DNA from: Fimbriiglobus ruber | Lineage (GTDB): Bacteria > Planctomycetota > Planctomycetia > Gemmatales > Gemmataceae | Assembly: GCF_002197845.1 (NCBI RefSeq) | Contig: NZ_NIDE01000001.1 | Span: 186,001-250,000, forward strand | Reading direction: 5' to 3' | Length of the DNA stretch: 64,000 nucleotides | Shown: positions 14,647-44,287 of the stretch, in pieces | Position numbering within the stretch: position 1 is the stretch's first letter | Layout of the letters: every line of letters starts with the position of its first letter | Translations under genes and position numbers: made by a program | The notes under the pieces: model-generated | Told to the model about the DNA's origin: nothing | Databases searched by the model: none | What the model saw: only the letters and a program-made list of their open reading frames with translations

Positions 14647-17403
14647 ATGCTTAGGATCAACCAGCAACGATCGGCTACCGGCGCGAAAAGTTACTTCGAG
14701 GAGGGGCTCGCTCGTGAAGATTACTACACCCAAGATGCCATTGTTGGCAGATGGGGAGGCAGAGGAGCCGAACGACTCGGCCTGATCGGTGAGGTCCAAC
14801 GAGAGGCGTTCCTCAAATTATGCGACAACCAGAATCCTCTTTCCGGCCACCCCCTCACGCCTCGGTCGAAAACCGAGCGCACCGTCGGCTACGACTTCAA
14901 CTGGCACGCCCCGAAGTCGGTGTCGCTCCTTTACACGCTGACCAAAGACGAACGCATTTTGGCGGCCTTCCGCGACGCCGTCCAACTGACCATGCGGGAA
15001 CTCGAATCCGACGTCCGCACCCGCGTCCGGCAGGGCGGGCAGAATTCCGAGCGGATAACCGGCAACCTGACCTATGCCGAATTCATCCACCTCACGGCCC
15101 GGCCGGTGAACGGCGTTCCCGACCCGCACCTGCATGCCCACTGCTTCGTCTTCAATGCCACCCACGACGACATCGAAGGCCGGTGGAAGGCGGCACAGTT
15201 CCGCGAGGTCGTGCGGGACGCTCCCTACTTCGAGGCGGCGTTCCACGCACGTTTGTCCAAGGGGATGGCGGACCTGGGCCTGACCATCGACCGCACCAAG
15301 GCCGGGTGGGAAGTCGCCGGGATCTCCAAAACCGTTCTCGATAAATTTTCGCGGCGGACCGCAAAAATTGAGGAATTGGCCCGCGAAAAAGGAATCACCG
15401 ACGCGGCCGAAAAATCGCAACTCGGAGCCAAGACGCGGGAGAAGAAGGGGGAGCCAAAATCCTTGGACGCACTCCGGGCCGAATGGAAGGGCCGGCTAAC
15501 GGAGGCCGAGCGGGGCGAGGTTAAATCCGTGCTAACCCGGCGGCAAACGCCAAAAGAGCCCCAGGTCTCCGTCCACGGTGCGATCGACCACGCCCTTCGC
15601 CACGGGTTCGAGCGGTCTTCGGTGGTCGAGGATCGCACGTTACTTGCGGCGGCCCTGAAACGCGGCTACGGGTCGATTTTGCCCGAGGATGCGCGGCGGG
15701 ATTTTGACGGGCGGATTGACATCATCCACCGTCGTTACAGCGACCGGAATGTCTCGACCACGAAAGAAGTATTGGCCGAGGAATCGGCTGCCCTGGAATT
15801 TGCGCGGGCCGGCCGCGGAACCTGCCGGCCGTTCCGAGCGAATGGCGCGACCTACCAACCAACCGGCCTGAATCTCGGTCAGGCGGAAGCGGTGCGGCAC
15901 GTTCTCACCTCGGCCGACCGCGTGATGTTGATCCGGGGTGCGGCGGGGACCGGCAAGACCACCCTCTTAAAAGCAGCGGACGCGGCGATCCGGTCCCACG
16001 GGTCCGCCGTCCACGTCTTTGCCCCAACGTCGGAAGCCTCCCGCGGCGTTTTGAGGAAGGAAGGTTTTCAGAATGCGGATACCGTCGCCAAGTTACTTGC
16101 GGACCGGGCGACGCAAGAAAAGGTCAAGGGCCAGGTGCTGTGGATGGATGAGGCGGGACTTCTTGGGACGAAGGACCTCCAGGGTGTATTCCGGGTGGCC
16201 CGGGAGCAGGGGGCGCGGGTCGTCCTGGTGGGCGATTCGAGGCAGCACAAATCGGTGGCGCGCGGCGACGGATTCCGGCTTTTAGAGACCCAGGCGGGGT
16301 TGCAGGCGGCCGAAGTGCGGGACATTCGCCGGCAGCAGGGCGAATATAAACGGGCGATCGAGGCACTGGCGGAGGGAAATCTGGAAACCGGGTTCACGCG
16401 GCTCGACCGCATGGGGGCGATCCGTGAGATCGCGGGCGAAGAGCGGCATCAGGCGCTGGCAGCCGATTACTTGTCGGCCATGAAAGACAAGAAGACGGCG
16501 CTGGTGGTCGCTCCGACCCATGCCGAGGCGCGGGAGGTGACGCATCTGATCCGTGAGGAAATGAAGACCGCAGGTTTTCTGAAGGGCCGGGAACAAGTTT
16601 TTACGCAACTCGTCTCCTACGGTCTGACCGAAGCCGAGCGCGCGGATCGCTTGAACTATCAGCCTGGGGACGTGGTTCGCTTCCACCAAAATGTCCGCGG
16701 CGGGTTCCGCAGCGGGCAGGCGGTGACCGTGATGGGCCGGGATGCGGAGGGAAATATTCTGGTCGCCCGCGAGCAGGGGACGGCCGCCGCACTCCCCCTC
16801 GACCAGGCGAAACATTTCGACGTGTATCAGCCGCGCGAACTCGCGCTCGCGGTCGGAGACCGGCTCCGCGTCACCCGGAATGGGATGACGGCGGACGGGA
16901 AAGGGCGGCTCCATAATGGGAATATCGCGACCGTCGCCGCGATCAACCGCCGCGGGGACATTGTGCTGGATAGTGGGCAAGTGATCGCGAAAGACTTTGG
17001 GCATGTGGCGCACGGATTCTGCACCACGTCTCATGCCAGCCAGGGCAAGACGGTCGACCGGGTTCTGGTCGCCATCGGCCAAGAGTCCTTCCCGGCGACC
17101 TCACAAGAGCAGTTCTATGTCTCGGCCAGCCGGGGCCGGGAGGCGGTCACGATTTTTTGCGAGGATAAGCGCGAGTTGCTGGAGGCGGTCAGCCGAGCGG
17201 GGACGCGGATCTCCGCCACGGAACTAACGGCTCCGGCGGCAACGGCACCCACCCAGCAACCCGCCCGCCGGGTGCGGCTCGGGGAACACATCCACCGGCA
17301 ACAACGGGCCGAAAAAGTCCGTCAGAAGGCCAGAACAGATGACAGGAGCCGTGAGCCGGTTATTGTCCCAGAACGGAGAAAAGAAAGAGGGAGGGATCGA
17401 TGA
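14647..17403 (+). CDS. MobF-type conjugative relaxase/helicase (TrwC/TraI-like)
   Basis: 918-residue bifunctional mobilisation enzyme. The relaxase domain (about 1-300) has candidate catalytic tyrosines Y16 and Y26/Y27, the acidic block GYDFNWHAPKSVS (81-93) and the metal-binding triad in PDPHLHAH (H161, H163, H165). The helicase domain has Walker A GAAGTGKTT near 430, Walker B WMDEAG near 500 and the RecD-like SHASQGKTVDRV near 796, then SASRGREAVT. It would nick and covalently hold one strand at oriT and unwind it for transfer. It is slightly shorter than TrwC (966) and half of F TraI. It overlaps the next gene by ATGA, marking a coupled pair. Confidence 0.95.
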   Translation: MLRINQQRSATGAKSYFEEGLAREDYYTQDAIVGRWGGRGAERLGLIGEVQREAFLKLCDNQNPLSGHPLTPRSKTERTVGYDFNWHAPKSVSLLYTLTKDERILAAFRDAVQLTMRELESDVRTRVRQGGQNSERITGNLTYAEFIHLTARPVNGVPDPHLHAHCFVFNATHDDIEGRWKAAQFREVVRDAPYFEAAFHARLSKGMADLGLTIDRTKAGWEVAGISKTVLDKFSRRTAKIEELAREKGITDAAEKSQLGAKTREKKGEPKSLDALRAEWKGRLTEAERGEVKSVLTRRQTPKEPQVSVHGAIDHALRHGFERSSVVEDRTLLAAALKRGYGSILPEDARRDFDGRIDIIHRRYSDRNVSTTKEVLAEESAALEFARAGRGTCRPFRANGATYQPTGLNLGQAEAVRHVLTSADRVMLIRGAAGTGKTTLLKAADAAIRSHGSAVHVFAPTSEASRGVLRKEGFQNADTVAKLLADRATQEKVKGQVLWMDEAGLLGTKDLQGVFRVAREQGARVVLVGDSRQHKSVARGDGFRLLETQAGLQAAEVRDIRRQQGEYKRAIEALAEGNLETGFTRLDRMGAIREIAGEERHQALAADYLSAMKDKKTALVVAPTHAEAREVTHLIREEMKTAGFLKGREQVFTQLVSYGLTEAERADRLNYQPGDVVRFHQNVRGGFRSGQAVTVMGRDAEGNILVAREQGTAAALPLDQAKHFDVYQPRELALAVGDRLRVTRNGMTADGKGRLHNGNIATVAAINRRGDIVLDSGQVIAKDFGHVAHGFCTTSHASQGKTVDRVLVAIGQESFPATSQEQFYVSASRGREAVTIFCEDKRELLEAVSRAGTRISATELTAPAATAPTQQPARRVRLGEHIHRQQRAEKVRQKARTDDRSREPVIVPERRKERGRDR

Positions 17404-24550: not shown

Positions 24551-25051
24551 AGGATGGTGAAAATGACGCATGTATCACATTGTCCAGATATATTTGACAC
24601 CGACATACATTTCAATGACACGGTTAGCCTTGATTGAATCGGATGATGTCGGTGCAATGCTGGATGAGACGGGCCTCAAAAGCTAGTCTCCTCGTATGGT
24701 AGACGAGTGAAGACAGGGCACGGCAGAAGAAGATGTCTCGCCACTTATATCTTGTTAACGTTTTATTAACTATTGTTTGCTATTATGAGATTTCAACTGA
24801 CGTATTAAGAAGAGAGCGCATTGGAGGCGCGGCATGGATGTACTTGAGGGATCAAGAAAAAAGATTGTTGGACGCCATTTGTGCGCAACCAGACGATAAC
24901 ACCGTGCGGCTGGTATACGCAGATTGGCTGGATGACCATGCTGGAGATGAAATGCCAGGCCATTCCTCCGCCTAGGAGATGCATGATCGGGCAGAACTTA
25001 TCAGAACCCAAATAAGCCTTGCGACCGCGAATCAAATGACAGAACCACTTA

Positions 25052-26002
25052 GAGGCTGTCCGAAAAGTGACCTTGCTGTAAGTTGTGCGTCTCTTGTAAG
25101 TTAGTCGCTCCTTCGTACTCGAGGAGCGAAGTCATGGATGCGACCGTTCGCAAACCGTATCCGACCGATTTGACCGACCTCCAATGGGAGATCATCCAGG
25201 TCGTCCTGCCGGCCGCCCGACCCGGAGGACGCCCCCGGTCGGTGGACCTCCGGGAGGTGCTGAACGCGATCGTGTACGTGAACCGGTCGGGGTGTCAGTG
25301 GTCGATGCTCCCGCACGACTTCCCGGCCAAGAGTACGGTGTACGAATACTTCGCCCAGTGGCGGGACGATGGCACCTGGCAAGAACTCCTGGATGTCCTC
25401 CGGGAGGGGTATCGGGAAGTCCACGCCCCGAGTCACGAGCGGACCCCGAGTGCCGCGAGCATCGACAGCCAGTCGGTCAAAGGGACCGAACACGCGGGCG
25501 GGAACGGGTACGATGCGGGCAAGAAAATCCAGGGCCGGAAGCGGTCGATCGTGGTCGATACGCTGGGCCTGCTGATGGTCGTGGCGGTGACCGCCGGGCA
25601 CGTCGACGACGCGGCCGCGGCCCCGACCGTACTCGAAGGGTTGGACCGTGACGCGTACCCGCGATTGAAGGTCGTGTGGGCCGACGGGAAGTACCACAAC
25701 CATGCCCTGAACGGGTGGAAAGACGGCCACCCGGAACTCGGATGGGAACTCGTCATCGTCCGCCGACCGGACGGGGTAAAGGGGTTCACCCTGTTACCCA
25801 AGCGGTGGGTCGTCGAGCGGACGTTCGGGTGGCTCGGGCGGGCCCGGCGGTTAAGTCGTAATTATGAGCGACTGAATAGTTCCAGCGAATCCATGATTCG
25901 TGTGCGGTCAATCCAGCTGATCCTCAATCGCATGGATCCACAAGAGCGTTATCCCCCGTTTAAATATAGAGTTGCATCAAAATAGTCTTCCCGGACAGGC
26001 TC
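25052..26002 (+). mobile_element. IS5-family insertion sequence, copy 1
   Basis: 951 bp with imperfect ends GAGGCTGTCCG (left) and GAGCCTGTCCG (right, opposite strand). TTA is present on both sides (25049-25051 and 26003-26005) as the target duplication. A second copy of the same length lies at 41367-42317 in opposite orientation and encodes an identical protein, so both moved recently. Confidence 0.93.
25134..25985 (+). CDS. IS5-family DDE transposase (copy 1)
   Basis: 283 residues from the ATG at 25134, which follows GAGGAG. The N-terminal DUF4096-type domain reads LTDLQWEIIQVVLPAARPGG. Catalytic residues: first Asp in ASIDSQSVKG, second Asp in VWADGKYHNH, and Glu in VERTFGWLGRARRLSRNYER, the DDE signature of IS5 relatives. 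Identical in sequence to the protein of copy 2. Intact and probably active. Confidence 0.94.
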   Translation: MDATVRKPYPTDLTDLQWEIIQVVLPAARPGGRPRSVDLREVLNAIVYVNRSGCQWSMLPHDFPAKSTVYEYFAQWRDDGTWQELLDVLREGYREVHAPSHERTPSAASIDSQSVKGTEHAGGNGYDAGKKIQGRKRSIVVDTLGLLMVVAVTAGHVDDAAAAPTVLEGLDRDAYPRLKVVWADGKYHNHALNGWKDGHPELGWELVIVRRPDGVKGFTLLPKRWVVERTFGWLGRARRLSRNYERLNSSSESMIRVRSIQLILNRMDPQERYPPFKYRVASK

Positions 26003-26952
26003 TTAGCCCAGATATTCAAATTGGCTATACTAGTCGCATAAAAGAACTACAGATTATCCACCGTAGCGAATGGGAATCCCAGATCCGTACGGCCCTCGGG
26101 CAGAGTTGTGACCAAGTGATTTTCCGGCGAGGATTTCCGAGCGAAGTTGTAGTGAACGACTTGCAACAATTAATCGACAGCCGTAGCCGCGTCTTCGAGT
26201 CCACTACATTGACGGAACTAACCGCGTGGAGGCTTGGGGGACGGCTTCAGGAACTGCTTGATAGTCTTGAGAGCCCGAAACTGACTTCACTCACACTTGG
26301 TTATTGTCTCCGCAACGAACAAGCTAGGGCTATCGCTAGTTCGCCATACCTTGCTAACTTAAAAAAGCTCGAGTTATGGAGCGAGATCGGGGGTGACGGA
26401 GCAGAGGCTATAGCTGGATCGCCACACCTTAGCAAACTGACAAAGCTCAAGCTTTCGCCGAGTAACCTCGGATCCAGGGGCGCTCAAGCGATAGCCCGTT
26501 CACCGCACTTAGCCAATCTTACTATTCTGGACTTGGAGGACAGCGGAATCGGAAATCAAGGCGCACGAGCCATTGCTCGCTCGCCGCAACTTGCCAACTT
26601 GACTGAGCTCAATTTGAATCTAAACGGCATCGGCGCAATGGGGGCGGAAGAATTGGCCGCCTCGCCATACCTGTTGCTCCCTGCCAAGCTCTCCGCTCTC
26701 CGATCGGCGCGGTTTGATGCCATTGCCGACCAAGTCGAGCGGGGCTCTCAAAGCCGTTACACTGGTCGTTAGTGCCAAGCATCTGATACGCACTTGTTTC
26801 GAACTTGAGTCAATGCAAGCACAACCGATAACATACTTTTTTAAGATAGAACACGCGAGTGTTTCCCACTCAAACAAAACGAAAATGCTGTCACTTCGAA
26901 CAAAGCCCTCTAGACGCGTGAAGAATTATATTTCATAGGGAAACCAGAAGTT

Positions 26953-29900
26953 TTATCCAGGGTCAACAAGAGAGAAATAACTTGTAGTCGTCGTGCCCGT
27001 GATGATATCGTAAGGGACAATTAGCGGCTGGATAATATTGTATAATCGATCGTCACTCCAGCTAAGATTCATCGAAAGATCAGATTGTAGCGGGCGAGAT
27101 GGTACACGATTGCCTGGGACTGGAACTCCACAAAGTTTTGATATGCTGTCAAAGACTTCACAAGCCACTGTCTGGACGTCTACCAAATCGAACTTAATTT
27201 GATCGCCAAACGCACAGGCTATCTCTTGGCTTGTAAGGATAGACACGTCCCGAATCGCGAGCCACCATTGTTCAAGCGAAGGAAATTGCTCATGGAATTG
27301 GAGGTAAGAGTTCGCGCAGTGATTGAGGTCGAGATCGAGACGACTTCGGATCGCAGCCGCTGCAATACGTACCGTTTCGTGCAACTTTGCAAGCGCAGGA
27401 GTGAGCCCAAGTGTTTCTCGCTGACGATCTGCCGACTCAGTGTTAGACAAATGGATCTGCCATCGAATGGCAATGATCTCCCATAAAGCCCAACGAATTT
27501 CAAGGCGGTAATATAAGCGCCACCAACGAGTATTCCGTCGCCCGCGACGTAAATGTGCACGGGCGCGGTCCAGAATTGACCGGAGTGATCGGACTTTAAC
27601 AATAGCGAAATGCAGGTTTGGCAAGGGTGCGGTGACAAAGATGAGACGCTCGATGTGTTGCCGAACAATAACTCCGGCGAACAATTCAACTATGCCTTGA
27701 CGATGCGCAGCGCTGTCGCTGGCCAGCGCCCGGGCGAGATCAATCTTCTTGTAAATCTCCTGCCAATTGTCCGAATCCCCTAATGATGTCTGCATAGCAC
27801 TGAGCCGTGCGTCCTGGATATAAATCCACATGTTAGCAATTCGCAAGTCGTCATTTTCAACATGATGCTGACTCGCATATTGGAAATACTTGGCCGACGT
27901 GTTACGAAATCGAAGCTCTTTAATGGCATCTGTTACATGAATGATTCTCTTGCCATCGCCTGTGTAAATGGGAGTTTCAAGCGCGGCGAGCGCGGCGGAC
28001 ATCTTCCACAAACGTGCTTCCAGAGACAGCTTGCCCGGTTTGTCGTCGATAGATATGCCACTCCCCGCACTTTGATAATCCAGGTCCCCCGAAAAGGCCG
28101 AGGCATAGGCCAGGGCCCGCTGACACGCGAGGCTCGCCCTACCTTTTCGTTCGGACGTTTCCTCTAGTCGTTCGAGGTCTTGGAACACTGCCGCCGCAGA
28201 GTAGAAATCCATCCGCTCGAAAGCCGACTCGCCCCAGAGTTCTAAAAGAAATCGCTGGAGAACCAATTTTGCACTCTGGGAGCCTGCGATTTTACCCGCT
28301 AATTTCTCCGGAAACATCCGATCAAAGTCATCACTCAGTAGCCACCGCACCCAGAAAATAATCTGTCCGGCCGGCGCCTGATACCGCAGGCTATCCGCAG
28401 ATTGACGCCAGGCATCAAGAAGAAACTCGTATCGGGCTTGGAGAACTGCGGCCAATTGCTTCGAGAGGTCTTCCGTGTTCGCAAAAAAATCTTTCCATAA
28501 CATTCCACCAACGTCGTCGCCGTAGTTAGGATTTTTCCTCAAGGTCCAATCGTCCTTGACCAAGGCTTGTTGTGCTGCACCGCAATCGACCCCAACCAGA
28601 ACGCATGTCTTTGATAGGTATCGAATACTGGATACGCGATGATATACATACTCAAAAAACGCGGCTGCATCCTTGCTCGCGAGATAGGTTTCAAAGTAAG
28701 TCGTGGCAATACAGTCATGCTCCGTAAACGCGCGGAATGTCTGGCGAACGGCCTCACCAAACTTATTCTTACGCGCAAGCTCCCCGCTAGGATGGTCATC
28801 GTTTGGCTCGTTGCGGACAACTTCGTCCATCCGGACCTGTGAAGTGTGGTTTGTGAAATGACTGTAAATGGCATTCCTTCTGGATCGATTCATCCACAGC
28901 CCGTCACCTTCGACATGGAATAATAGACGGTTTTCTATGCAGCAGGCATCGATCACATCCTTGCAACGGTTTGCATCATCTACGAACGCCTGCCTGATCT
29001 CGACAAGGTTGCGGGTTCGTCGAAAGCATGAGAGGCGAAATACTGCTTGATCTCTGTTCGGATTCGATCCGATATCGTCTAATAAATCCTTAACTGTAAC
29101 TGTTGAATTGGTAGTAAGATCGATCCATGCTTTGTCACTTTTCAATTTCTCGATCAGCCCCTGATCCAGACATGGAGGGCAGATTAGTCCAGGAGCGTGT
29201 CGCGGGTGGGGTGTGTCGATACTGATAACGACACGTGATCCATGAAACTTGGCCCGATGAGAAGCAAGTCGCTTAAAAAAAGCCATCACGTCCTTCAGAT
29301 GAGTTCCCATGTAAACGCGGGTCTTTTCGACATCCCCGTGGTGGGCCGTGGGAGGCCAAGTCAAAGTTTCCAGGCCATCGAATGCTAGTAAGAAGTGCGC
29401 ACGCTGTAGAATACGTAACACTCGCTGCACGGCCCTATCGACAACCTCATCTGATAACGGATTTCGATCAATGTCGAGATTGCAGCAGCTACCATCTTGA
29501 TTCGGCTTAACTGAATCCTGGCCCATTGCAAAGGGAGTCGTCGCAGTGTCATAGCGCTTCGCCTGGTCAACAATCATGACGATGACGTCTGCGAGTGAGT
29601 AACACGCCTCCAAATCCACCCAGATTACATGATGGATCCCGCTGTGTACTCTGAGAAACTCGGCCAGATGTTGAGAGGCGGTCGCTTCCGCCGGAAAACA
29701 ACCAACAACATGGGTCGCGGCTGGATCAAAGCCATTAATGACAGCAAACGGCTGATCTTTGATTTGATCCAGGACTTTTTTTCTCACTTTCAAGCCAGTT
29801 TCGCCCGAATCGAACCCAAAAGGGCGTTCGCTATGGGTGAGGTACGGGACACGGCTGGCCGGGTAACGCCCAGCCATTCGTCCGTAAAGCGCTTTCAGGA

Positions 29901-31014
29901 AGTACCCTGGATTGAGGGCGCGGCAAGCTGATACGGAGGAACCAATCCCATCTTCTCTAAAAAAATCAGGAGCTTCCTTGTCAAAATGAATCCACGCGAC
30001 AGTTTTTAATTCTTCCTGTTTTTTTTGGTTTGCAAAGTGCTCCACGACTGATCGAACACGCCTATCGGCGCCGCTACAACCGAGAACGACGAGCAAAGGT
30101 GGCATCGACCCTCGCCCCTGCAAACACTGCTGCAGGCGTTTCAAGTAGTCACGGGTGAGTGGTTCTTCGAGCCGATAATCGAGCAATAGACGGTGTGTAT
30201 CTCCGTGCAATTTGAGAACTGCCGTCGTATTTCGGGTCAAGAGTTCACCTGGAAATTGCATTCCCTCTTCTAAAGCGAAGACACGATGCGGAATGTCCTG
30301 TTGGCGCAAGGCGATTTCAAAATATTGATCAAAATTAAAAGTTAATAATATCGTCCAAACGTTTAGCCGCGTCAGAAATGCGGCATATTGATGCGCCAGA
30401 GCGGGCGGGCGGTCAATGTGGAGACGACTGAATAATGCATCCGCAAGATCCGCATCGTGGTCAGTAAAATGCGAGATTGTATCTCGCCAATCTTCTAAAT
30501 ACCAATTGATGTCGTAATTAAAATCGTATTGAGGCTCGTTGGGCTTGTTCTGTTTGTATACGTCCAGGCATAGCTTCAGTCGATTCGCTTGATAACGATG
30601 GCGCGAACTCGCAATTATACGTTCCTTTGCCTTATTGATACGGTCCTCAACCACGTCGTATTCCGACAGAGTGGCGGCTATTTCGGCATGAATATCAAAG
30701 CGCCCCGGCCACCCGAAAATATGCAGAAACGTACTAGGCGTCCGCTTAAAGAGATCGAGTTTTTTGTGGAGAAACTTTATAAATAGAGAGTTTCTCAATC
30801 TTGAGTCCGTCAGAATGTCACTGGCACCCATAAGCAAATATTTGTCAAGATAACAACGGAATTTGTACAAATATCGCTGGATTCCGGTAACGACAGGCAT
30901 CCCTGCATCATAGGAGCAACCTGCACCAAACAGAGGTACGATAGTGCGACCATTGTGCCAAGCTGTGATTATCAAGTCCATGACCTCATCGTAATTCTTC
31001 CTTTCATCACTCAT
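26953..31014 (-). CDS. SIR2-domain protein with STAND-like and helical repeat region (candidate antiphage NADase)
   Basis: 1353 residues. Residues about 20-330 are a SIR2-like fold: GAGCSYDAGMP (30-40) for NAD binding, TFNFD (225-229), LKLHGD (267-272) and VVLGCSGADR (309-318). Such N-terminal SIR2 domains in large defence proteins (Avs5/SIR2-STAND, DSR families) destroy NAD+ after phage sensing. Residues about 420-560 look STAND-like, with Walker B LLAFDGLE (542-549), but the expected Walker A near 425-440 lacks the GKS/T. The rest, to 1353, is long alpha-helical repeat sequence, probably TPR-like sensor. AT-richer than neighbours, implying transfer. Transcribed alone; the next gene (31686) is 670 bp upstream. 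Confidence 0.82.
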   Translation of the reverse strand: MSDERKNYDEVMDLIITAWHNGRTIVPLFGAGCSYDAGMPVVTGIQRYLYKFRCYLDKYLLMGASDILTDSRLRNSLFIKFLHKKLDLFKRTPSTFLHIFGWPGRFDIHAEIAATLSEYDVVEDRINKAKERIIASSRHRYQANRLKLCLDVYKQNKPNEPQYDFNYDINWYLEDWRDTISHFTDHDADLADALFSRLHIDRPPALAHQYAAFLTRLNVWTILLTFNFDQYFEIALRQQDIPHRVFALEEGMQFPGELLTRNTTAVLKLHGDTHRLLLDYRLEEPLTRDYLKRLQQCLQGRGSMPPLLVVLGCSGADRRVRSVVEHFANQKKQEELKTVAWIHFDKEAPDFFREDGIGSSVSACRALNPGYFLKALYGRMAGRYPASRVPYLTHSERPFGFDSGETGLKVRKKVLDQIKDQPFAVINGFDPAATHVVGCFPAEATASQHLAEFLRVHSGIHHVIWVDLEACYSLADVIVMIVDQAKRYDTATTPFAMGQDSVKPNQDGSCCNLDIDRNPLSDEVVDRAVQRVLRILQRAHFLLAFDGLETLTWPPTAHHGDVEKTRVYMGTHLKDVMAFFKRLASHRAKFHGSRVVISIDTPHPRHAPGLICPPCLDQGLIEKLKSDKAWIDLTTNSTVTVKDLLDDIGSNPNRDQAVFRLSCFRRTRNLVEIRQAFVDDANRCKDVIDACCIENRLLFHVEGDGLWMNRSRRNAIYSHFTNHTSQVRMDEVVRNEPNDDHPSGELARKNKFGEAVRQTFRAFTEHDCIATTYFETYLASKDAAAFFEYVYHRVSSIRYLSKTCVLVGVDCGAAQQALVKDDWTLRKNPNYGDDVGGMLWKDFFANTEDLSKQLAAVLQARYEFLLDAWRQSADSLRYQAPAGQIIFWVRWLLSDDFDRMFPEKLAGKIAGSQSAKLVLQRFLLELWGESAFERMDFYSAAAVFQDLERLEETSERKGRASLACQRALAYASAFSGDLDYQSAGSGISIDDKPGKLSLEARLWKMSAALAALETPIYTGDGKRIIHVTDAIKELRFRNTSAKYFQYASQHHVENDDLRIANMWIYIQDARLSAMQTSLGDSDNWQEIYKKIDLARALASDSAAHRQGIVELFAGVIVRQHIERLIFVTAPLPNLHFAIVKVRSLRSILDRARAHLRRGRRNTRWWRLYYRLEIRWALWEIIAIRWQIHLSNTESADRQRETLGLTPALAKLHETVRIAAAAIRSRLDLDLNHCANSYLQFHEQFPSLEQWWLAIRDVSILTSQEIACAFGDQIKFDLVDVQTVACEVFDSISKLCGVPVPGNRVPSRPLQSDLSMNLSWSDDRLYNIIQPLIVPYDIITGTTTTSYFSLVDPG

Positions 31015-31685: not shown

Positions 31686-32201
31686 CTATCCTCGTTCTTG
31701 GTCCTTGCCACCTTTTCGCTCAATGAGTCGCTTGAGCCCTTCTTGCATCTGTTCCAGGGCATCCTCATCTCGGAGAGCGGACGTGAACTTCGTCCTGGCG
31801 GCCAGACGATCGCCGAGAGTCGGGTCTTGGAACGGGGAGGAAAGCTCACCCAGGATCGGGGAGTAACAGGACAAGACGACATTTTTCACGTCGTCGGTAT
31901 AGGTCCCGTCGATTTTCACCAAACCGGCACGCATCAGATCGATGATGATCTTGCGGTCTAACGGGTCGATCGGGATGGCTTTACTACAAGCCCGGTGCAG
32001 AACGGTTAGACATTTTTCGCCGTAGGCAAACGCCCCTCCCGACGACATGGCGAGTACCTTTTGCACCCCCAGCATGATTTCCGCCGCGGCCGCGAACGAG
32101 ACGTCCGCTCCGTTCTTCAGCTTGACACGATCGCTCATAATAGCCAAAAAGGCCGTTTCTAAATCGGCTATTATTATACTATTAATACTATATTCAGACA
32201 A
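31686..32201 (-). CDS. Hypothetical protein coupled to the STAND gene
   Basis: 171 residues if started at the TTG at 32201, which overlaps the end of the upstream STAND gene by 8 bp; an ATG at 32138 would give 150 residues. Mainly helical, with FAAAAEIMLGVQKVLAMSS and LDRKIIIDLMRAGLV, and a charged C-terminus. No domain recognised. The overlap implies co-translation with the STAND protein, so it could be its effector, inhibitor or adaptor; this is inference. Confidence 0.65.
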   Translation of the reverse strand: MSEYSINSIIIADLETAFLAIMSDRVKLKNGADVSFAAAAEIMLGVQKVLAMSSGGAFAYGEKCLTVLHRACSKAIPIDPLDRKIIIDLMRAGLVKIDGTYTDDVKNVVLSCYSPILGELSSPFQDPTLGDRLAARTKFTSALRDEDALEQMQEGLKRLIERKGGKDQERG

Positions 32202-34333
32202 TTTCTATTTGACGTCGGAGCTGTTCGCGTCTCTTTTCCGCCCGCTGATAACCACATTGTCGGATCAGCCGCGCCGCGATGTCCCAATGGACCGATGCCG
32301 CCGAACGCGGACCGACTGCCAGGTTCAACGCGACCAATTCGAGGTGACATTCGATCTCGCACAAACGATGCTTTCGCTTCTCGGACAAATTCAGCGCCGT
32401 CTCGGTATCTTTATGGGCCGTCTCCGTTTGCCCCCGGACTTGGTCCAAGCGGGCGCGTCCGAGCAGTCCGCGAATGGCCAGATCAGTGACTGCCGACTGA
32501 ACAAGCTCTTCGGCCGAGGATTCGATGAGCGGGATGGCACGGGGGAGGTCACCGGCGAGGAGAAAAAACCGCCCGAGCGTGAGCCGGGCGAGGGACCGGC
32601 CCGGCCCGGGGTAGTGGATACCCTCGACACCGTTTTCGATCCGATCACGCGCGAGCGATTCCCCGAGGAATTCGTGCCGGTCTACGAGATAGATGCAGTA
32701 ATGCGCCTCGTTTAACGCTTCGATGCCGGGGTATCCCGCCCGCCCCACTTGCTTCAATAGACGGTGCATGAAATCGAAGGCTTTGCCGCTCTCGTCCCAC
32801 CGGCCGGCGGCATGAAACACGCGGGCCGAAACACCGAGGGCCAAAATCCGAACCGTTGGGAGATGGGGGAGATGCTCTTCCACCAGTCGGAGACACTTTT
32901 CGCTGCTCCGGATCGCTTCGCGCAAGCTGCCGGCGATCAGGTGGTGCATCGCCAAATACCCGGACGCAAAGCCCGCTCCCACATAGTCGCCCACCTCGGC
33001 GAACAAAGCCGCCGCCTGGGTGTTTCGCAGAATGGCTTCCGTGGGCATCCCGGCCGCTTGCGCGACGACGCCGGCCCAATGATGAAGTCGGGCCAGATCC
33101 TGCGCGGGAAAGGTGTTCATGATGCCGGAATGCGGATCTTTGCCGAGGGCGTTCGGGAAGAATAACCGCATCATTTGCTCGTCGTCCCGGCCGAGCCCGA
33201 TTCCGTGGGGTTGGAAGCCGACCCATCCCTGCCAAAACTTGCCCCAGATAATGTCACGGAACGCGGCCAACTGCTCTCCGGCGGAACAGGCGTGCCAGAC
33301 CGCGCGACGTAACGGCTCGAACTCGCGTTCGATCGAGGGAATTTCTTCCCCGCCGCGATAAAAGTGGAAGAGGCGGCGGCTCCCTTCCTGCCAAGTGTCG
33401 GCTCGCTCGAATAAGACTCGCCGATAGTAATTGCGGGCGATCGGGTGGTAAAAATCGATCGTCTCCTCGGCTTGCGTACCGGGACTGTGGGTCGTGACCA
33501 GACGACATTCTTGGAGCGTATGGAGCAACTCGTCCCACCAGGATTGTGGCCGATCGGTAAAGGCTTCCGTCAGGTCCGGAAGGGCCGGTTTCTCAATCAG
33601 GGAGAAGATCTCCGGCCAGTGGGCGGGGCCGTTGAAGAACGCCAGGAGGCAGAGAAACGCCCGGGCCTCCGCGGGTAGGCACTTGTCGTAGGACGAAAAG
33701 AGCCGATCGATTTTGTAGTCGGTGGTATTGCCGGTGATTTCGCTGCGTTTCTCGATGTCACCGCGGTACTGGCGAACGAGTTGGGTCGCAAGCCAGGTCA
33801 GGCTTAAAGGATGATTCTTCCACTCAGTCACGGCCGCGAAGAGTTCTGCGTCCTCCCCCCGAACACCAAGCCCCCTTAATAGCTCGACTCCCACCCGATC
33901 GGGAAGGGGCTGAAGATCCAAATACCGGACGGTTTTGCCGCACCAGAGGTCGAGGTCCGTCACCGGCACCCGCGTCGTAATGACGCAGAGAAACGGGGTG
34001 GTGGCGGGTAAGGCTAACGTGGCCAAAAACTCGCGAAGTCCTTCGTCCTCAATGTGTCCCGGCCGCTCGTGGCCGAGCGGTTTCTGAAGCGTTTCGAGCC
34101 CGTCCAAGAGGAGTAACGACCGCTTTCCGCGGAACAACCCGGCTAAATGCCGGCCGCGGGCGAAGGCGGACCGATCGAAAGGAATTGGTTCTTCAAACCA
34201 CTCCTCGGTAGCAGTCCGGATGAAATCTGTCGCCGCGGCCGACGGGCATTCGATCCCCTGATTGTTGAAAGACCAGTAATAAATTCCGCGAGCCCCTCCG
34301 TAACCCAACGAAGTGAGCTCGGCTAGCCAATTA

Positions 34334-35613
34334 CAGTAGTTCAAAATCCCCGTGAGTGAAACCCTTTATTCTTTAAACAGTTATGTTCGCGTATCAGAAA
34401 GCGTTTCGTTGTCGTTATTTCCTTGAGCAAGTACGGCCAACATCCACCTGAACTGGAATCGTTTCGATGCCGCTTGCACTCGCGGGTGCCTGTCCTCCCC
34501 GAACCAGAGCGCCTGAAACCACACCCAAAGGTTTCGCAGCAACAGGGCCAGACCCACGAAGAACGATCGCAGGATCGGGTTCCGGGTACTGGTCCGGATT
34601 CGCGCCTGACCGAGTTGCCGATAGCTGCTTTCGATCCCGAACCGTGTGCGATACGCGTCACGCACGTCCCTCGGTGCACCCGACACACGCCAGCTGGCGA
34701 ATACCAACGTCTTGGCCCGCCGCTTGTTCGTCCGGTGGTGGCGGTAGCTCTTGTAACTCACACAGACCCTCACGGTCACCTCCTCACCCTTGTGACGGTG
34801 CGTGTGACGATACCAGCCGGCGGGCTTGCGCCGGAACATCCGCCATCCCGTGGACTTCTTCCCGCGACGCGGCTTCCGCCCGCGCATCACCACGGGCATC
34901 AGGAAGGGACAGTTGCGCTCCTGGAGAAACTGCATCACGGCGACGCTGAAAAACCCCCGATCCAGAAGCAGTTTGCGAATCCTCACGCCGCTGTTCCCGA
35001 CCTCGGTCAGGAGTCGTTGCAGAACCTCGACCGTCGAGTCTTCCGCCCGGACCCACGTGTACGCCAGGGTATACCTGTGCCCATGATGAATCAGACAGGC
35101 GGTGGCGTAGGTAAAAAACGTGGTCGTCCCCGAGCGTGGCTTGTTGCCCCGGACGTGATTCTTGGGACCGTGTCCGTGATACGGAATTTCGTGGTAATCG
35201 ATCGCCAGATCCCGAGACCGGCGGCGCGTGTTCGGCGGCAGCGGTTCGCGCAAGGCGTGGTTCAGCTTGGCTTCGAGCGGCTTGCGCTGTTTGGGCAGAC
35301 GCGACTTCAATTCGCTGCGCGCCGTCTGATCGGAGATCGTACCCAGACGAAGGCAGGCCCCGAACAACGAGATGATGTTGGCCGCAGCCGTCAACACGAC
35401 CTGGAGCAGAACCGGCGCAGAACATTTGCGCGAACTCGATGGTCTGAAGATCGGAGAGATCAGTTCCGCAGCCCGATCTTGAATTTGCCGGGAACACAGT
35501 TTAGGCTTCTTGGCAGAACGCATGTTTCGCCACTCCATGGCTAGGTCGTGCTAACCCACTATGGAGCCGAAACATGCGTTTTTTTCAAGACCACCTCCAA
35601 TTTTGAACTACTG
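34334..35613 (-). mobile_element. IS4/ISH3-like insertion sequence
   Basis: 1280 bp bounded by 14-bp inverted repeats CAGTAGTTCAAAAT and flanked by the 5-bp duplication AATTA (34329-34333 and 35614-35618). A 5-bp duplication fits the ISH3-like branch of IS4 relatives. It carries one intact transposase gene. Confidence 0.92.
34381..35538 (-). CDS. IS4-superfamily DDE transposase
   Basis: 385 residues, basic. First catalytic Asp in LAIDYHEIPYHG, second in KLLLDRGFFS, and Glu in YRTRFGIESSYRQLGQAR, the YREK-like third motif of IS4/ISH3-type transposases. N-terminal helical DNA-binding part. Full length for the family and fills the IS. Confidence 0.88.
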   Translation of the reverse strand: MEWRNMRSAKKPKLCSRQIQDRAAELISPIFRPSSSRKCSAPVLLQVVLTAAANIISLFGACLRLGTISDQTARSELKSRLPKQRKPLEAKLNHALREPLPPNTRRRSRDLAIDYHEIPYHGHGPKNHVRGNKPRSGTTTFFTYATACLIHHGHRYTLAYTWVRAEDSTVEVLQRLLTEVGNSGVRIRKLLLDRGFFSVAVMQFLQERNCPFLMPVVMRGRKPRRGKKSTGWRMFRRKPAGWYRHTHRHKGEEVTVRVCVSYKSYRHHRTNKRRAKTLVFASWRVSGAPRDVRDAYRTRFGIESSYRQLGQARIRTSTRNPILRSFFVGLALLLRNLWVWFQALWFGEDRHPRVQAASKRFQFRWMLAVLAQGNNDNETLSDTRT

Positions 35614-35998
35614 AATTAGAGATTAAGGTCGATTTCCCGTCGCCACCGGCGGCATGAACGACCAGGATATTGATCCGCCGGTCGCCCCAGGCGGTATTCA
35701 GCGCACGAAGTTCTTCCTCGCGGCCGAGACACCGGGAATCACTGGTCGGGGTGTCGCCATAAAAGGGGACGCTCTGGCTGGTGTCAGGTTGGAGGTCTGA
35801 CTGGGAGAGGCCGAGTGCGTTCGCCAGATCTCGCAAGGTTTGCGGGGCGGCTTTGTGGGCTCCGGTCGATTTTTCGATTTGCTGGATCGTCCTGCGAGCG
35901 ACTCGCGACTTGGCTTCTAGTTCCGCCTGGGACCAACCTTTTTGCTCGCGATATTCCTTGAGGAGACGACCCCAGATCACGACGAGCGGACGGCTCAT

Positions 35999-36281: not shown

Positions 36282-37211
36282 ATGGCGTTACGCGAGCAAA
36301 TTGAAGCCGCGCATCGAATCGGAAAGATTTTGACGGGGGTTCCGCTCCCGGCCAGTTGGCTGATGATCGGTCGCCGGACTTCCCTCGGCGACGATAAATG
36401 CCGCCGGCTCATCGAGCGGTGGGAAGAAGGTGTGGAAGCCAAGCTAGTCGAATTGCGGGACGGCCGGTTGACGCTCTCCGCGACCGGCTGCCGATTCCAA
36501 AAACTGATCGAGGGACTGATCGCCCTGAAGACGCAATCCGCCGCCGGGCCGCAAGAGCCCTTGAACATCGAAGCCGCCCCGGAGCTTGCGGAATGGCTGC
36601 TGCCTCGGGTTTTTCCCGCGATGTTCGAGACCTATGGCGAATACGTCCGGACACAAATTCGGCCGTTCGACCCGGCCCGCGTCCGGTCCAACATTCGCGC
36701 CGGCCTGACCGATTTGGCGATCGGCTTCGCCTCGGAAGAGACCGAATCGCCGGCCGACGAGGTACTCGAAACGTCCCGGCACTGGCTCCTGATCTTCCCC
36801 GATTCGTTCGGCACCCGCCCCGAAGGGGCTTTGCTCGCAGCCTCCGACCGCGTTTTTGTCGCGCGTGGAAACACGCCCCAAATCGCTCTTGAGGCACTGA
36901 GCGCCGTTCCGGAATCCGCCTGGACGGAATGCGGTACGTTCGCGGCCGTCCGTGCCTGTGTAAGTGCCGGTCTCGGTGCGGGGTTGGTCCCGGCCATCGG
37001 GGTCGAAGCGAAAGAATATGGTGAGATGCCCCTCACGAATGTGGCCCCCGTCGGTGTGGCAATCTACCGCCCGCGAAATCTCGCCGGCCTGAGCGATCCA
37101 GCACGAACTTTTCTCACCGCGATTCGCGACGTCTTTGCGGTGACAAACCCGCCAGTTACGACGGGCGAAATGGTTTCTACCCACGCCGAAACCAACGGAG
37201 AACTCGCGTGA
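36282..37211 (+). CDS. LysR-like regulator with atypical DNA-binding half
   Basis: About 309 residues from the ATG at 36282, chosen for an upstream GAGG. The C-terminal 200 residues resemble the LysR periplasmic-binding-fold effector domain (EPLNIEAAPELAEWLLPRVF, DLAIGFASE, CVSAGLGAGLVPAI). The N-terminus has helices like a winged HTH (GDDKCRRLIERWEEG) but is not a textbook LysR HTH. It overlaps the coupling-protein gene by 4 bp, so it is the first gene of the transfer-type operon and probably controls it. Finding a LysR-like protein fused by overlap to a coupling ATPase is unusual. Confidence 0.65.
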   Translation: MALREQIEAAHRIGKILTGVPLPASWLMIGRRTSLGDDKCRRLIERWEEGVEAKLVELRDGRLTLSATGCRFQKLIEGLIALKTQSAAGPQEPLNIEAAPELAEWLLPRVFPAMFETYGEYVRTQIRPFDPARVRSNIRAGLTDLAIGFASEETESPADEVLETSRHWLLIFPDSFGTRPEGALLAASDRVFVARGNTPQIALEALSAVPESAWTECGTFAAVRACVSAGLGAGLVPAIGVEAKEYGEMPLTNVAPVGVAIYRPRNLAGLSDPARTFLTAIRDVFAVTNPPVTTGEMVSTHAETNGELA

Positions 37212-38635
37212 CCATCAACACGATCAAAGCCTGGAACCTTTTAAAGCCGCTGCTCTACTTCTCGGAGCAAGATCCGTTCACGATCGGCGACTCCTGTGAG
37301 GGGGCGTTCGTGTTCGGACAAACGGGGTCGGGTAAATCCTCCGGCATCGGCCAGAGTCTCGCCATCGCCATGCTCCGCGCGGGCTATGGAGGCTTGGTTC
37401 TGTCCGCCAAACCCGGGGAAGCCGAGACCTGGATGAAATACGCCCGCCTCACGGGACGGGAACGGGATCTGGTCATTGTGAGCCCGGAGAACCGGCACCG
37501 ATTCAACATGCTCGACTTCCTGTACAAGTCGGGCGGACGGGGGGCGGGCCTCACCGATAACGTCGTTGCCATCATCCTCGAAATGCTGCGAGTGAAAGAC
37601 CAATCGCGGGGAAGTGGAGGGGACGCCTTCTGGACCGATTCCGCACGGCAAACCTTGTCTTGCTGTATCGATTTGCTGGGGTTAGCGAAAGAAACGATCT
37701 CGTTCCCGAACATCGCCAAACTCCTGAATTCCGCCCCGACTTCTCAGGAAGAATTGGCGTCGGATGTCTGGCTGAAGAAATCTTACCTGAACGCGATCGT
37801 CGACCGGGCCACGGCGAACAAAACGCTGTCGGTCTCCCAGGAAACGGATTTGCTGGTGGCGGTGGAATATTTCCTGTCGCAGTTCCCGCGGATGGACGAC
37901 CGCACCCGGAGCAACATCCTGGCCACGGTGAATTCCTTGACGTTCGTCTTCACCCGCGGGTTACTGGTCGAGCTATTCGGTTCGACCACGAATTTCGGTC
38001 CGCAGGACACGTTCGAGAAGGGTTCGATCATCGTTCTCGACTTGCCCGTGAAGACGTTTCTTGAAGCCGGGCAGTTCGCACAGATTCTTTTCAAAACCAT
38101 CTGGCAGAAGGAGGTCGAAAGACGTGATGTGAGCCTCCACCCGCGGCCGGTAGTCATGTTTTGTGACGAATTTCAGAATTTCGTCACTCCCTATGACCCG
38201 ATCTTCCAAAGTACGGCCCGGAGTGCGCGGGTTGCGAGTGTCGCTTTGACGCAGAACATCGATTCGATCATCAGCCGTTTTCCCGCCCATACCGGCCGGG
38301 CCGAGGCCGAAGCCCTGTTCGGGAATTACAACCTCAAAGTTTTCTCCGCCCAAGACCACGTCGGCACGAATGAATGGGCAAGCAAATCGATCGGCCAGGT
38401 TTGGCAGTATGTGACCAATACGAACGCTTCCCTCGGAGCGGAGAACGGTTCCCTGTCGGCCGGGTCCAGCCAGCAACTCAAATACCTCGTCGACCCGATC
38501 GAATTCGTTCGGCTCAGGAAGGGCGGGGAATCAAACAACTGCATGGTTGACAGCATCGTGTTTCGGAGCGGCAAACCCTTTGTTGCCAGTGGCGTGAACC
38601 ACCTGCATGTGAGCCTCCCCCAAAACCTCCGGTGA
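37208..38635 (+). CDS. VirD4/TraG-like type IV coupling ATPase, soluble form
   Basis: 475 residues, GTG start in a 4-bp overlap. Walker A FGQTGSGKSSG (36-46), Walker B VVMFCDEFQNF (315-325), and conserved VLSAKPGEAETW and LTQNIDSIISRF match the coupling-protein/TraD family that feeds relaxase-DNA to a secretion channel. Usual family members carry two N-terminal transmembrane helices; this one starts almost directly at the ATPase domain. The next gene encodes a membrane protein that could supply the anchor. With the relaxase at 14647 this makes the element at least mobilisable; no VirB4 or pilus genes are in the window. Confidence 0.85.
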   Translation: MTINTIKAWNLLKPLLYFSEQDPFTIGDSCEGAFVFGQTGSGKSSGIGQSLAIAMLRAGYGGLVLSAKPGEAETWMKYARLTGRERDLVIVSPENRHRFNMLDFLYKSGGRGAGLTDNVVAIILEMLRVKDQSRGSGGDAFWTDSARQTLSCCIDLLGLAKETISFPNIAKLLNSAPTSQEELASDVWLKKSYLNAIVDRATANKTLSVSQETDLLVAVEYFLSQFPRMDDRTRSNILATVNSLTFVFTRGLLVELFGSTTNFGPQDTFEKGSIIVLDLPVKTFLEAGQFAQILFKTIWQKEVERRDVSLHPRPVVMFCDEFQNFVTPYDPIFQSTARSARVASVALTQNIDSIISRFPAHTGRAEAEALFGNYNLKVFSAQDHVGTNEWASKSIGQVWQYVTNTNASLGAENGSLSAGSSQQLKYLVDPIEFVRLRKGGESNNCMVDSIVFRSGKPFVASGVNHLHVSLPQNLR

Positions 38636-41334: not shown

Positions 41335-41366
41335 ATGATAGATGCGCTAATAATTAAACTAGCTTA

Positions 41367-42317
41367 GAGCCTGTCCGGGAAGACTATTTTGATGCAACTC
41401 TATATTTAAACGGGGGATAACGCTCTTGTGGATCCATGCGATTGAGGATCAGCTGGATTGACCGCACACGAATCATGGATTCGCTGGAACTATTCAGTCG
41501 CTCATAATTACGACTTAACCGCCGGGCCCGCCCGAGCCACCCGAACGTCCGCTCGACGACCCACCGCTTGGGTAACAGGGTGAACCCCTTTACCCCGTCC
41601 GGTCGGCGGACGATGACGAGTTCCCATCCGAGTTCCGGGTGGCCGTCTTTCCACCCGTTCAGGGCATGGTTGTGGTACTTCCCGTCGGCCCACACGACCT
41701 TCAATCGCGGGTACGCGTCACGGTCCAACCCTTCGAGTACGGTCGGGGCCGCGGCCGCGTCGTCGACGTGCCCGGCGGTCACCGCCACGACCATCAGCAG
41801 GCCCAGCGTATCGACCACGATCGACCGCTTCCGGCCCTGGATTTTCTTGCCCGCATCGTACCCGTTCCCGCCCGCGTGTTCGGTCCCTTTGACCGACTGG
41901 CTGTCGATGCTCGCGGCACTCGGGGTCCGCTCGTGACTCGGGGCGTGGACTTCCCGATACCCCTCCCGGAGGACATCCAGGAGTTCTTGCCAGGTGCCAT
42001 CGTCCCGCCACTGGGCGAAGTATTCGTACACCGTACTCTTGGCCGGGAAGTCGTGCGGGAGCATCGACCACTGACACCCCGACCGGTTCACGTACACGAT
42101 CGCGTTCAGCACCTCCCGGAGGTCCACCGACCGGGGGCGTCCTCCGGGTCGGGCGGCCGGCAGGACGACCTGGATGATCTCCCATTGGAGGTCGGTCAAA
42201 TCGGTCGGATACGGTTTGCGAACGGTCGCATCCATGACTTCGCTCCTCGAGTACGAAGGAGCGACTAACTTACAAGAGACGCACAACTTACAGCAAGGTC
42301 ACTTTTCGGACAGCCTC
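41367..42317 (-). mobile_element. IS5-family insertion sequence, copy 2
   Basis: 951 bp, same ends as copy 1, flanked by TTA at 41364-41366 and 42318-42320. It lies inverted relative to copy 1. The 15-kb segment between the copies includes both STAND-type genes and the transfer operon, but each copy has its own target duplication, so they look like separate insertions rather than one composite transposon. Confidence 0.93.
41384..42235 (-). CDS. IS5-family DDE transposase (copy 2)
   Basis: 283 residues, identical to the product of copy 1 at 25134, with the same DDE residues and start (ATG at 42235 after GAGGAG). Intact. Confidence 0.94.
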   Translation of the reverse strand: MDATVRKPYPTDLTDLQWEIIQVVLPAARPGGRPRSVDLREVLNAIVYVNRSGCQWSMLPHDFPAKSTVYEYFAQWRDDGTWQELLDVLREGYREVHAPSHERTPSAASIDSQSVKGTEHAGGNGYDAGKKIQGRKRSIVVDTLGLLMVVAVTAGHVDDAAAAPTVLEGLDRDAYPRLKVVWADGKYHNHALNGWKDGHPELGWELVIVRRPDGVKGFTLLPKRWVVERTFGWLGRARRLSRNYERLNSSSESMIRVRSIQLILNRMDPQERYPPFKYRVASK

Positions 42318-42483
42318 TTAGTCTATATTTTCGATTGTGTCAACAATTATGGTTAATGCTGAATAACATCCTTTATTCGGCACTAAGTTAAAACATGCGA
42401 CCAAAGGGAGAAACTGGTCGATTCACGAGTCATCGATCGGAAACGCGGAATCCGACCGATGTACCTTCTATCCGACGGTATCG

Positions 42484-42768
42484 ATGAATTCCTCCCCAAG
42501 TCCTGACTCCCTTCCCGACATTTCTCCCGATCAGTTCGAGCGCGTGTTAGCTCTTGTCGCGGCAATCGCCAAAAGCGCCCCCGGGAAAACCGAACCCAAA
42601 TACTTAACTGTCGAGGATGCGGCCGCATACTGCCGGGTCGCAGTTCAAACGATTTACAACAATCGAAGGTACATCGAGCGGATGCCGGGAGTGCGGAAGC
42701 TCCTATTCACCAGGGAAGCCCTTGATGCCTGGTTGGCAAATCGAAAGAACCGCCGCCGGGCGAAATAA
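42484..42768 (+). CDS. Excisionase-like helix-turn-helix protein
   Basis: 94 residues. The second half is a MerR/Xis-type winged helix: YLTVEDAAAYCRVAVQTIYN, then the wing VRKLLFTREALDAWL and a basic tail. Placed 117 bp upstream of the integrase on the same strand, the usual place for a recombination directionality factor. It would bend DNA at the attachment site to favour excision. Confidence 0.82.
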   Translation: MNSSPSPDSLPDISPDQFERVLALVAAIAKSAPGKTEPKYLTVEDAAAYCRVAVQTIYNNRRYIERMPGVRKLLFTREALDAWLANRKNRRRAK

Positions 42769-44213: not shown

Positions 44214-44287
44214 TGCGCTCGGAGGGAGTCGAACCCCCAACCTACGGTTCCGAAGACCGTTGCTCTATCCAGTTGAGCTACGAGCGC
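44214..44287 (-). tRNA. tRNA-Arg (anticodon TCG)
   Basis: Minus-strand cloverleaf: acceptor GCGCTCG / CGAGCGC, D-arm GCTC...GAGC, anticodon stem ACGGT / ACCGT with loop CTTCGGA (anticodon TCG), variable loop AGGTT and T-arm with TTCGACT. The discriminator base is A and no CCA is encoded. Its 3' end faces the integrase, making it the likely attB. Confidence 0.97.

Follow-up and report, generated by a model that had tools for sequence, protein, structure and literature searches.

Immune receptors of the STAND/NLR type are generally viewed as switches driven by ATP. In Avs5, an N-terminal SIR2 NADase is followed by a STAND module and a C-terminus of helical repeats, and the Walker A motif of the middle module (GPAGSGKT, residues 357–364) is essential, since immunity is lost when Gly362 or Lys363 is changed to alanine; its Walker B motif is reduced to a single residue, Glu410, and yet the protein is functional (available text of PMC12931631). 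A second large single-chain SIR2 protein, DSR2, is activated when a tail-tube protein binds its C-terminal sensor domain (PMC10981675, in the portion accessible). There are also STAND modules, termed inactive, whose Walker motifs are eroded throughout the family, namely iSTAND of the MoxR-vWA ternary systems and BrxB of BREX (PMC7159879, PMC8195603 and PMC12839542, as far as their accessible text goes). Here we describe a gene in a window of 64,000 nucleotides, the whole stretch of DNA analysed, from Fimbriiglobus ruber (assembly GCF_002197845.1, contig NZ_NIDE01000001.1, forward-strand positions 186,001 to 250,000). It encodes in one chain a SIR2 domain, a middle module with a predicted STAND fold and long, predicted helical repeats, and it belongs to a family in which the P-loop is missing from all 29 long members examined.

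The reading frame has an ATG start and runs uninterrupted for 1353 codons, and the gene is present in a single copy in the 12.36-Mb genome (coordinates of all features are collected in Table 1). Pfam gives one match in the protein, SIR2_2 (PF13289; residues 222–347, E 2.7e-9, exceeding the Pfam cut-off), and the same model matches 29/29 long members. The preliminary description of the locus, made from the sequence alone, had reported complete SIR2 motifs, and G30-A-G-C-S34, T225-F-N227-F-D229 and K268-L-H270-G271 are indeed all in place. N227, D229, K268, H270 and G271 are each found in every one of the 29 members, and G30, G32, S34 and G38 in all 28 rows with an in-frame N-terminus, the 29th (L069) having its N-terminus in another frame. 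The SIR2 active site of the window protein is thus complete. With the whole protein, phmmer found no relative among solved structures at E 1. A profile of the SIR2 part (28 rows, without L069) matched 8in8, which we take to be SPARSA Sir2, and two related entries at E 1.1e-18, followed by ThsA (8.5e-8), human FAM118B (1.1e-4), KomC (5.5e-4) and 8k98, presumably DSR2 (0.0019); many ordinary sirtuins are matched as well, from E 2.5e-8. The asparagine and histidine align in the 8in8-type alignments shown. By sequence, the nearest solved relative of the SIR2 part would therefore be SPARSA Sir2, with DSR2 far weaker.

The P-loop GxxxxGK[S/T] that marks an active STAND module is missing from the window protein. 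The pattern [G/A]-x4-G-K-[S/T] does not occur anywhere in its sequence, nor does any GK[S/T] between the SIR2 domain and Walker B. A P-loop hidden elsewhere in the chain, which the preliminary description had regarded as a finding that would undo its account, is rejected, none having been found. Among the 29 long members, none has a Walker A motif in the expected place, and 28 of the 29 rows have no GK[S/T] between the SIR2 domain and Walker B. Two candidates were rejected: the NGKS of L062, which sits ahead of strand 1, and a relaxed-pattern match at residue 1308 of L056, which lies far downstream. Because the absence is common to all 29 members it is more than chance, and we regard the missing P-loop as a trait of the family. 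Recent local loss or a pseudogene was also rejected, given the intact frame, the conservation of the other domains and the 29/29 absence. The P-loop-less SIR2-STAND family is thus real, and wider than the single gene in the window.

The search does find P-loops where they exist. The pattern picks out GMGGVGKT in a SIR2-NB-ARC-WD40 protein (L148) from the genome of member L059, and a P-loop is visible by eye in all three strongly matching nSTAND3 proteins and, as GGDGKST, in a fragment of the neighbouring STAND gene of the window. Seven other SIR2 proteins, picked from the result of the SIR2 profile, were inspected in the same way: one (L148) has a true P-loop, five have none, and a relaxed-pattern match in L150 was taken for chance. 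The profile of the middle module gave no match at E 10 to the long open reading frames (ORFs) of those seven loci. As a separate observation, the SIR2 proteins L144, L145 and L146, with open frames of 1042–1057 amino acids, look by eye like single-chain SIR2-short-Argonaute fusions.

The Walker B-like LLAFDGLE of the preliminary description is also present, within FLLAFDGLE at residues 541–549. The acid at position 546 (Asp or Glu) is kept in 17/18 rows of the window's clade and in 2/11 of the other, which is the one clade where Walker B has eroded. Just past this strand, the window's clade has an HHG motif (H558 17/18, H559 16/18, G560 17/18), which is not conserved in the other clade.

An AlphaFold model of residues 376–860, built on a 28-row alignment, has a mean predicted local distance difference test score (pLDDT) of 80.1 and a predicted template modelling score (pTM) of 0.83. 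Its strands and helices succeed one another as in P-loop NTPases, with further helices and a winged helix after them, the domain names being read from the DSSP string. The best solved match by VIA-align is the STAND-TPR protein 6mfv (Z 17.8, root mean square deviation 3.3 over 272 residues), followed by 8bob_C of the maltose system (14.2), which we take to be MalT, Apaf-1 (12.7), the NRC1 NB-ARC (11.9), archaeal ORC2 (11.6) and Avs3 (10.4); general ORC/AAA+ entries, Avs3 included, lie at about 9.4–11.6, and the best 50 rows end at 9.4. Because of this model, and because 6mfv ranks best in both VIA-align and Foldseek, the middle most likely folds as a STAND module in which residues 428–445 replace the P-loop. 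In the predicted structure, strand 1 (423–427) and helix 1 (446–457) flank this stretch, which therefore occupies the P-loop position, although its own confidence is lower (pLDDT about 67–72). The preliminary description had put the place of the absent Walker A at about 425–440, which was right.

The middle module is under constraint, because R668, G703, W707, E788 and H792 are each kept in 28/29 members. Two of these belong to a winged-helix motif (G703 28/29, W707 28/29, R713 26/29), which may correspond in position to the NLR MHD motif. The model of residues 760–1353 is all helical (pLDDT 73.1, pTM 0.70). VIA-align finds TPR-like chains for it from Z 16.6 downward, a value just somewhat above the approximately 14 that is the tool's best for helical models, and Foldseek gave no match at E 0.001.

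The long members, the window protein included, measure 1273–1959 amino acids and come mostly from Planctomycetota, with Methylobacter and Nitrosomonas in addition; they share 15–32% identity with the window protein. Rows left out were the incomplete L058, L034 and L046, the short SIR2 proteins L047–L049, and L040, L041 and L045, which are the same contigs as L064, L060 and L066. Two defective rows were kept, L069 and L060, which reaches a contig end; L069 is absent from the SIR2 profile and tree and L066 from the middle-module profile, and both are in the family-wide counts. A midpoint-rooted tree built from the SIR2 sequences of 28 rows falls into two groups of 17 and 11 that are the same as the two clades, with support 100/100, though the program flags long branches, L008 among them; L069 is counted with the window's clade without placement on the tree. 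Aligning the C-terminal part proved more difficult, with 3 nearly invariant columns versus 6 for the middle module, and ranges from 539 to 909 residues in length. One member (L066:6902-12781; 1959 amino acids) carries an extra Ser/Thr kinase domain with HRDVKPDN at residue 820; it is the only one of the 29 with kinase matches, and the models concerned include the defence-system MAD6 and PD-T4-6 as well as PknB types.

Distribution is patchy. A single-sequence search matched 5 of 392 genomes of the phylum, and a profile of those five matched 39 of 397 genomes of the class, a result table that we read as 25 with family members and 14 with short SIR2 matches alone. The middle-module profile matched 7 of the 392 genomes; both counts for the phylum include the window's own genome. 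In Methylobacter's class the same profile matched 1/274, the Methylobacter genome itself. The SIR2 profile matched 43/297 genomes of the class, a figure that pools family members with other SIR2 proteins. Because only the top few candidates per genome were scored, these counts are lower bounds. A pattern search for close relatives gave no plasmid, phage or viral-contig match; of two scans of genome contigs, the first found none and the second 10 loci, including Schlesneria, Isosphaeraceae, Methylobacter and Nitrosomonas.

The order of domains is that of Avs5 as given in its available text, an N-terminal SIR2 NADase, a STAND middle and a helical-repeat C-terminus (PMC12931631), and the catalytic Asn and His of the SIR2 domain are likewise present in the window protein. 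Unlike Avs5, none of the 29 members has a Walker A motif in the expected place or a Pfam match to nSTAND3 (PF20720), and the family is set apart by the published description of Avs5; the window protein is not Avs5, because Avs5 needs the Walker A that is absent here. The nSTAND3 search matched 52/143 genomes, and its three strong matches are the proteins without SIR2 whose P-loops served as controls.

The family resembles iSTAND and BrxB in having a STAND/ORC fold, here a predicted one, with Walker motifs eroded across the family, and in a wide sense it counts as an inactive STAND. Those proteins belong to multi-gene systems with other effectors, and the BREX paper describes them with a helical bundle that is reduced or absent, whereas the family of the window protein combines SIR2 with long repeats and a predicted winged helix in one chain and has no recurring partner gene. 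The words 'Sir2' and 'sirtuin' are absent from the main text of PMC7159879 and PMC12839542, and 'SIR2' occurs once in PMC8195603, about another system. With DSR2, as described in the accessible portion of PMC10981675, the window protein shares a large single-chain SIR2 design and, presumably, a C-terminal sensor. Its sequence match to 8k98 is confined to the SIR2 part, and the middle-module profile finds neither this nor any other solved chain at E 10. DSR2 is not known to have an NTPase domain or a STAND fold. The presumed SPARSA Sir2 and ThsA, the closest solved SIR2 domains of defence type, have APAZ or SLOG partners rather than STAND plus helical repeats. Conversely 6mfv, MalT and Apaf-1, to which the predicted middle module is alike in fold, bind nucleotide and are not known to carry a SIR2 domain.

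PADLOC, which includes Avs5 and DSR models, matched the window protein in its SIR2 part alone, to the PDC-S65 and Aga_SIR2 models, and among the 25 families listed, of 50 for the 29 members, there is no Avs5 or DSR name. NCBIfam has no match for the window protein and gives sirtuin models in up to 7/29 members; PHROGs has none; and Pfam at E 0.01 adds to SIR2_2 just the two kinase models in one member. A near-identical named defence family, which would have told against a distinct subfamily, is thus found neither among the PADLOC families listed nor in NCBIfam. The preliminary description holds as regards the P-loop-less, STAND-like middle of this SIR2 protein and its membership of a distinct subfamily, the predicted fold and the 29/29 absence agreeing with it; its placement between Avs5 and DSR is not supported, the SIR2 part being nearest to the presumed SPARSA Sir2. 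We found no inactive STAND fused to SIR2 in the open-access literature as far as its text was accessible, where compound names of SIR2 with STAND, NACHT, TPR or NLR led to the Avs5 paper alone, and thus no description there of the architecture SIR2, P-loop-less STAND and repeats.

On balance, and with a good deal of room for doubt, we favour the view that the window protein is a single-chain SIR2 NADase immune receptor of STAND/NLR-like build, in which the P-loop-less STAND module serves as a scaffold rather than as a canonical ATP switch. The C-terminal repeats would recognise a molecule of the invader, probably a phage, and the signal would pass through the winged helix and the pseudo-nucleotide domain, leading the SIR2 domains either to assemble or to be released. 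NAD+ would then be hydrolysed and the cell would stop growing or die by abortive infection, with no ATP bound at the usual site, a feature in which it would resemble DSR2. That the solved SIR2 matches include the defence NADases SPARSA, ThsA, KomC and DSR2 (SPARSA and DSR2 being our own identifications) speaks for this view, as does the mobile-looking context of the gene (a dip in GC content, TrwC, a type IV secretion system (T4SS) coupling protein, an integrase and tRNA-Arg). A family of SIR2-STAND receptors with the predicted STAND architecture and the NADase site in place, but no P-loop in any member examined, offers a natural way of asking where NLR-type activation depends on ATP. For Planctomycetes, a phylum whose antiphage systems have, to our knowledge, been little studied, it would mean a further family that may defend by depleting NAD+.

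Several observations weigh against this scaffold view. The STAND assignment depends on predicted structure: the elements of the superfamily fold (nucleotide-binding-domain fold, helical part and winged helix) are seen in the model and not by sequence models, since no Pfam STAND or AAA model, nSTAND3 included, matches any of the 29 members at E 0.01, and the profile search of solved chains was equally blank. In Foldseek, 6mfv is the sole match below 0.001 (E 9.4e-4), with a template modelling score of 0.34. The defence role is proposed by analogy, and the neighbours in the window are not recognisable defence genes. Finally, the retention of the Walker B acid and HHG in the window's clade would be odd if the pocket binds nothing. 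The suggestion in the preliminary description that the module no longer uses ATP is likely for the canonical site, though short of proof. We entertain more tentatively a bolder version, in which these are NLR-like NADase receptors without an ATP switch, their SIR2 gated directly via the P-loop-less scaffold; the former nucleotide pocket (Asp546 and HHG 558–560) would, within the window's clade, now serve a different ligand, perhaps a metal or a signalling nucleotide.

The same residues could be taken to mean that nucleotide is still bound, non-canonically, through the Walker B Asp, HHG and the winged helix, giving an atypical switch worked by ATP/ADP or a small ligand. The conservation of both in the window's clade fits such a switch, as does the precedent of Avs5 working with Glu410 alone, but no member has a Walker A, Avs5 itself loses immunity when Gly362 or Lys363 is replaced (PMC12931631, available text), and in the other clade 9/11 rows are without the acid and HHG is not conserved; we consider it improbable. 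Rather unlikely too is a scheme in which the inactive STAND itself is the receptor, binding nucleic acid or another ligand, whilst the repeats mainly keep the protein inhibited. A nucleic acid receptor role has been proposed for inactive STAND domains (eLife, 2021; PMC8195603, in its accessible part), and the middle model has a predicted winged helix and resembles ORC/Cdc6 proteins with Z up to 11.6; it is, however, the C-terminal part that shows the diversity in sequence and length expected of a sensor.

The protein might instead work in a hetero-oligomer with an ATP-competent STAND partner encoded elsewhere, like the sensor/helper pairs of NLRs. A canonical HTH-STAND-TPR gene lies just upstream, its piece at 35585–35998 encoding the helix-turn-helix (HTH) and P-loop and its piece at 32194–34344 a Walker-B-like strand and TPR, and the genome of L059 encodes the P-loop SIR2-NB-ARC protein already mentioned. 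The upstream gene appears, however, to be split by a transposase gene (34381–35538), a search of 40 other related genomes gave nothing at E 1e-20 for its 32194–34344 piece, and there is no recurring partner gene, because each Pfam family is seen in at most 3 of the 94 neighbours scanned at 28 relatives' loci, so that such a partner seems quite improbable. Least credible of all, to our minds, is a SIR2 protein outside defence, for instance a regulator or deacylase on a TPR-like scaffold. No defence hallmark adjoins the gene, the neighbours are diverse and the SIR2 profile matches ordinary sirtuins too; against this stand the patchy distribution (25/397 genomes of the class, 1/274 in Methylobacter's), the strong divergence of members, the mobile-looking context and a defence NADase as the closest solved SIR2 match.

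The GC content is 0.50–0.51 over 26–32 kb, versus 0.57 and 0.60 in the adjoining 2-kb windows. A ParA gene is also found in the region, and 13483–44287 is probably a mobilisable island. A search of bases 1–44000 for its left end showed the tRNA end repeated nowhere at a length above 12. Among nine neighbouring proteins of the window PADLOC matched just two, a TraG-like protein (mad8, E 2.7e-6) and, less strongly, one other (E 0.018 and 0.07). The 94 neighbours at relatives' loci are those of 98 picked ORFs that remain when the window's four, handled apart, are set aside, and several may not be genes; the most frequent Pfam families are found in 3 of the 94 and TrwC and resolvase in 2, and no MoxR, vWA or PglZ/BrxC partner is among the 25 neighbour families listed, of 144.

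Table 1. Features of the SIR2-STAND gene and its surroundings in the window (window positions; residues refer to the 1353-residue protein).
Feature	Position	Strand	Basis or remark
Whole gene, SIR2 – P-loop-less STAND – helical repeat protein	26953..31014	minus	1353 aa
SIR2 domain, residues 1-380	29875..31014	minus	PF13289 match and SIR2 profile match to 8in8
GAGCS NAD-binding motif, residues 30-34	30913..30927	minus	G30, G32, S34, G38 kept
Catalytic Asn N227 (TxNFD)	30334..30336	minus	29/29 members; aligns with TTNFD of 8in8
Catalytic-type His H270 (KLHG)	30205..30207	minus	29/29 members; aligns with KIHG of 8in8
Predicted pseudo-STAND module, residues 381-800 (nucleotide-binding-domain fold, helical part, winged helix)	28615..29874	minus	AlphaFold model of 376-860
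Strand 1 – degenerate loop – helix 1 at Walker A place, residues 423-457	29644..29748	minus	no GK[S/T]; model
Walker-B-like strand FLLAFDGLE, residues 541-549 (D546, E549)	29368..29394	minus	sequence and model
HHG motif, residues 558-560, window's clade only	29335..29343	minus	just past Walker B
Winged-helix motif GGxxW(x5)R, residues 703-713	28876..28908	minus	window sequence GDGLWMNRSRR
C-terminal helical-repeat region, presumed sensor, residues 801-1353	26956..28614	minus	AlphaFold model of 760-1353
TrwC relaxase	14647-17403
Two identical 953-bp insertion sequence (IS) copies, IS4/5-type transposase	25051-26003 and 41366-42318		opposite orientation
Convergent leucine-rich repeat (LRR) gene	25972-26772	plus	next downstream of SIR2 gene
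HTH-STAND-TPR gene, apparently split by transposase gene	32194-35998	minus	just upstream of SIR2 gene
T4SS coupling protein	37208-38635
HTH_17 protein	42484-42768
Integrase	42886-44127		PHROGs match; no Pfam match
tRNA-Arg	44214-44287		beside integrase

The two IS copies flank the SIR2 gene and the T4SS coupling protein, and the bases at their flanks suggest separate 3-bp target duplications, TTA and TAA. One copy reaches into the start of the LRR ORF. A convergent LRR gene is next downstream in 4 of the 8 Gemmata-type members (the window, L056, L057, L063, L068, L069, L070 and L071, L056 being without downstream DNA), at distances of 181, 44, 18 and -7 bp in the window, L063, L068 and L071, respectively. 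These four are related to one another, but genes of this kind abound: matches to TIGR02996, the Gemmata repeat-companion family, number 42–93 in their four genomes, with 42 in the window's genome and none in 14 control genomes. Elsewhere in the window, at 56356–56505, a stretch of 75 nucleotides is present as a tandem duplicate with 99% identity.

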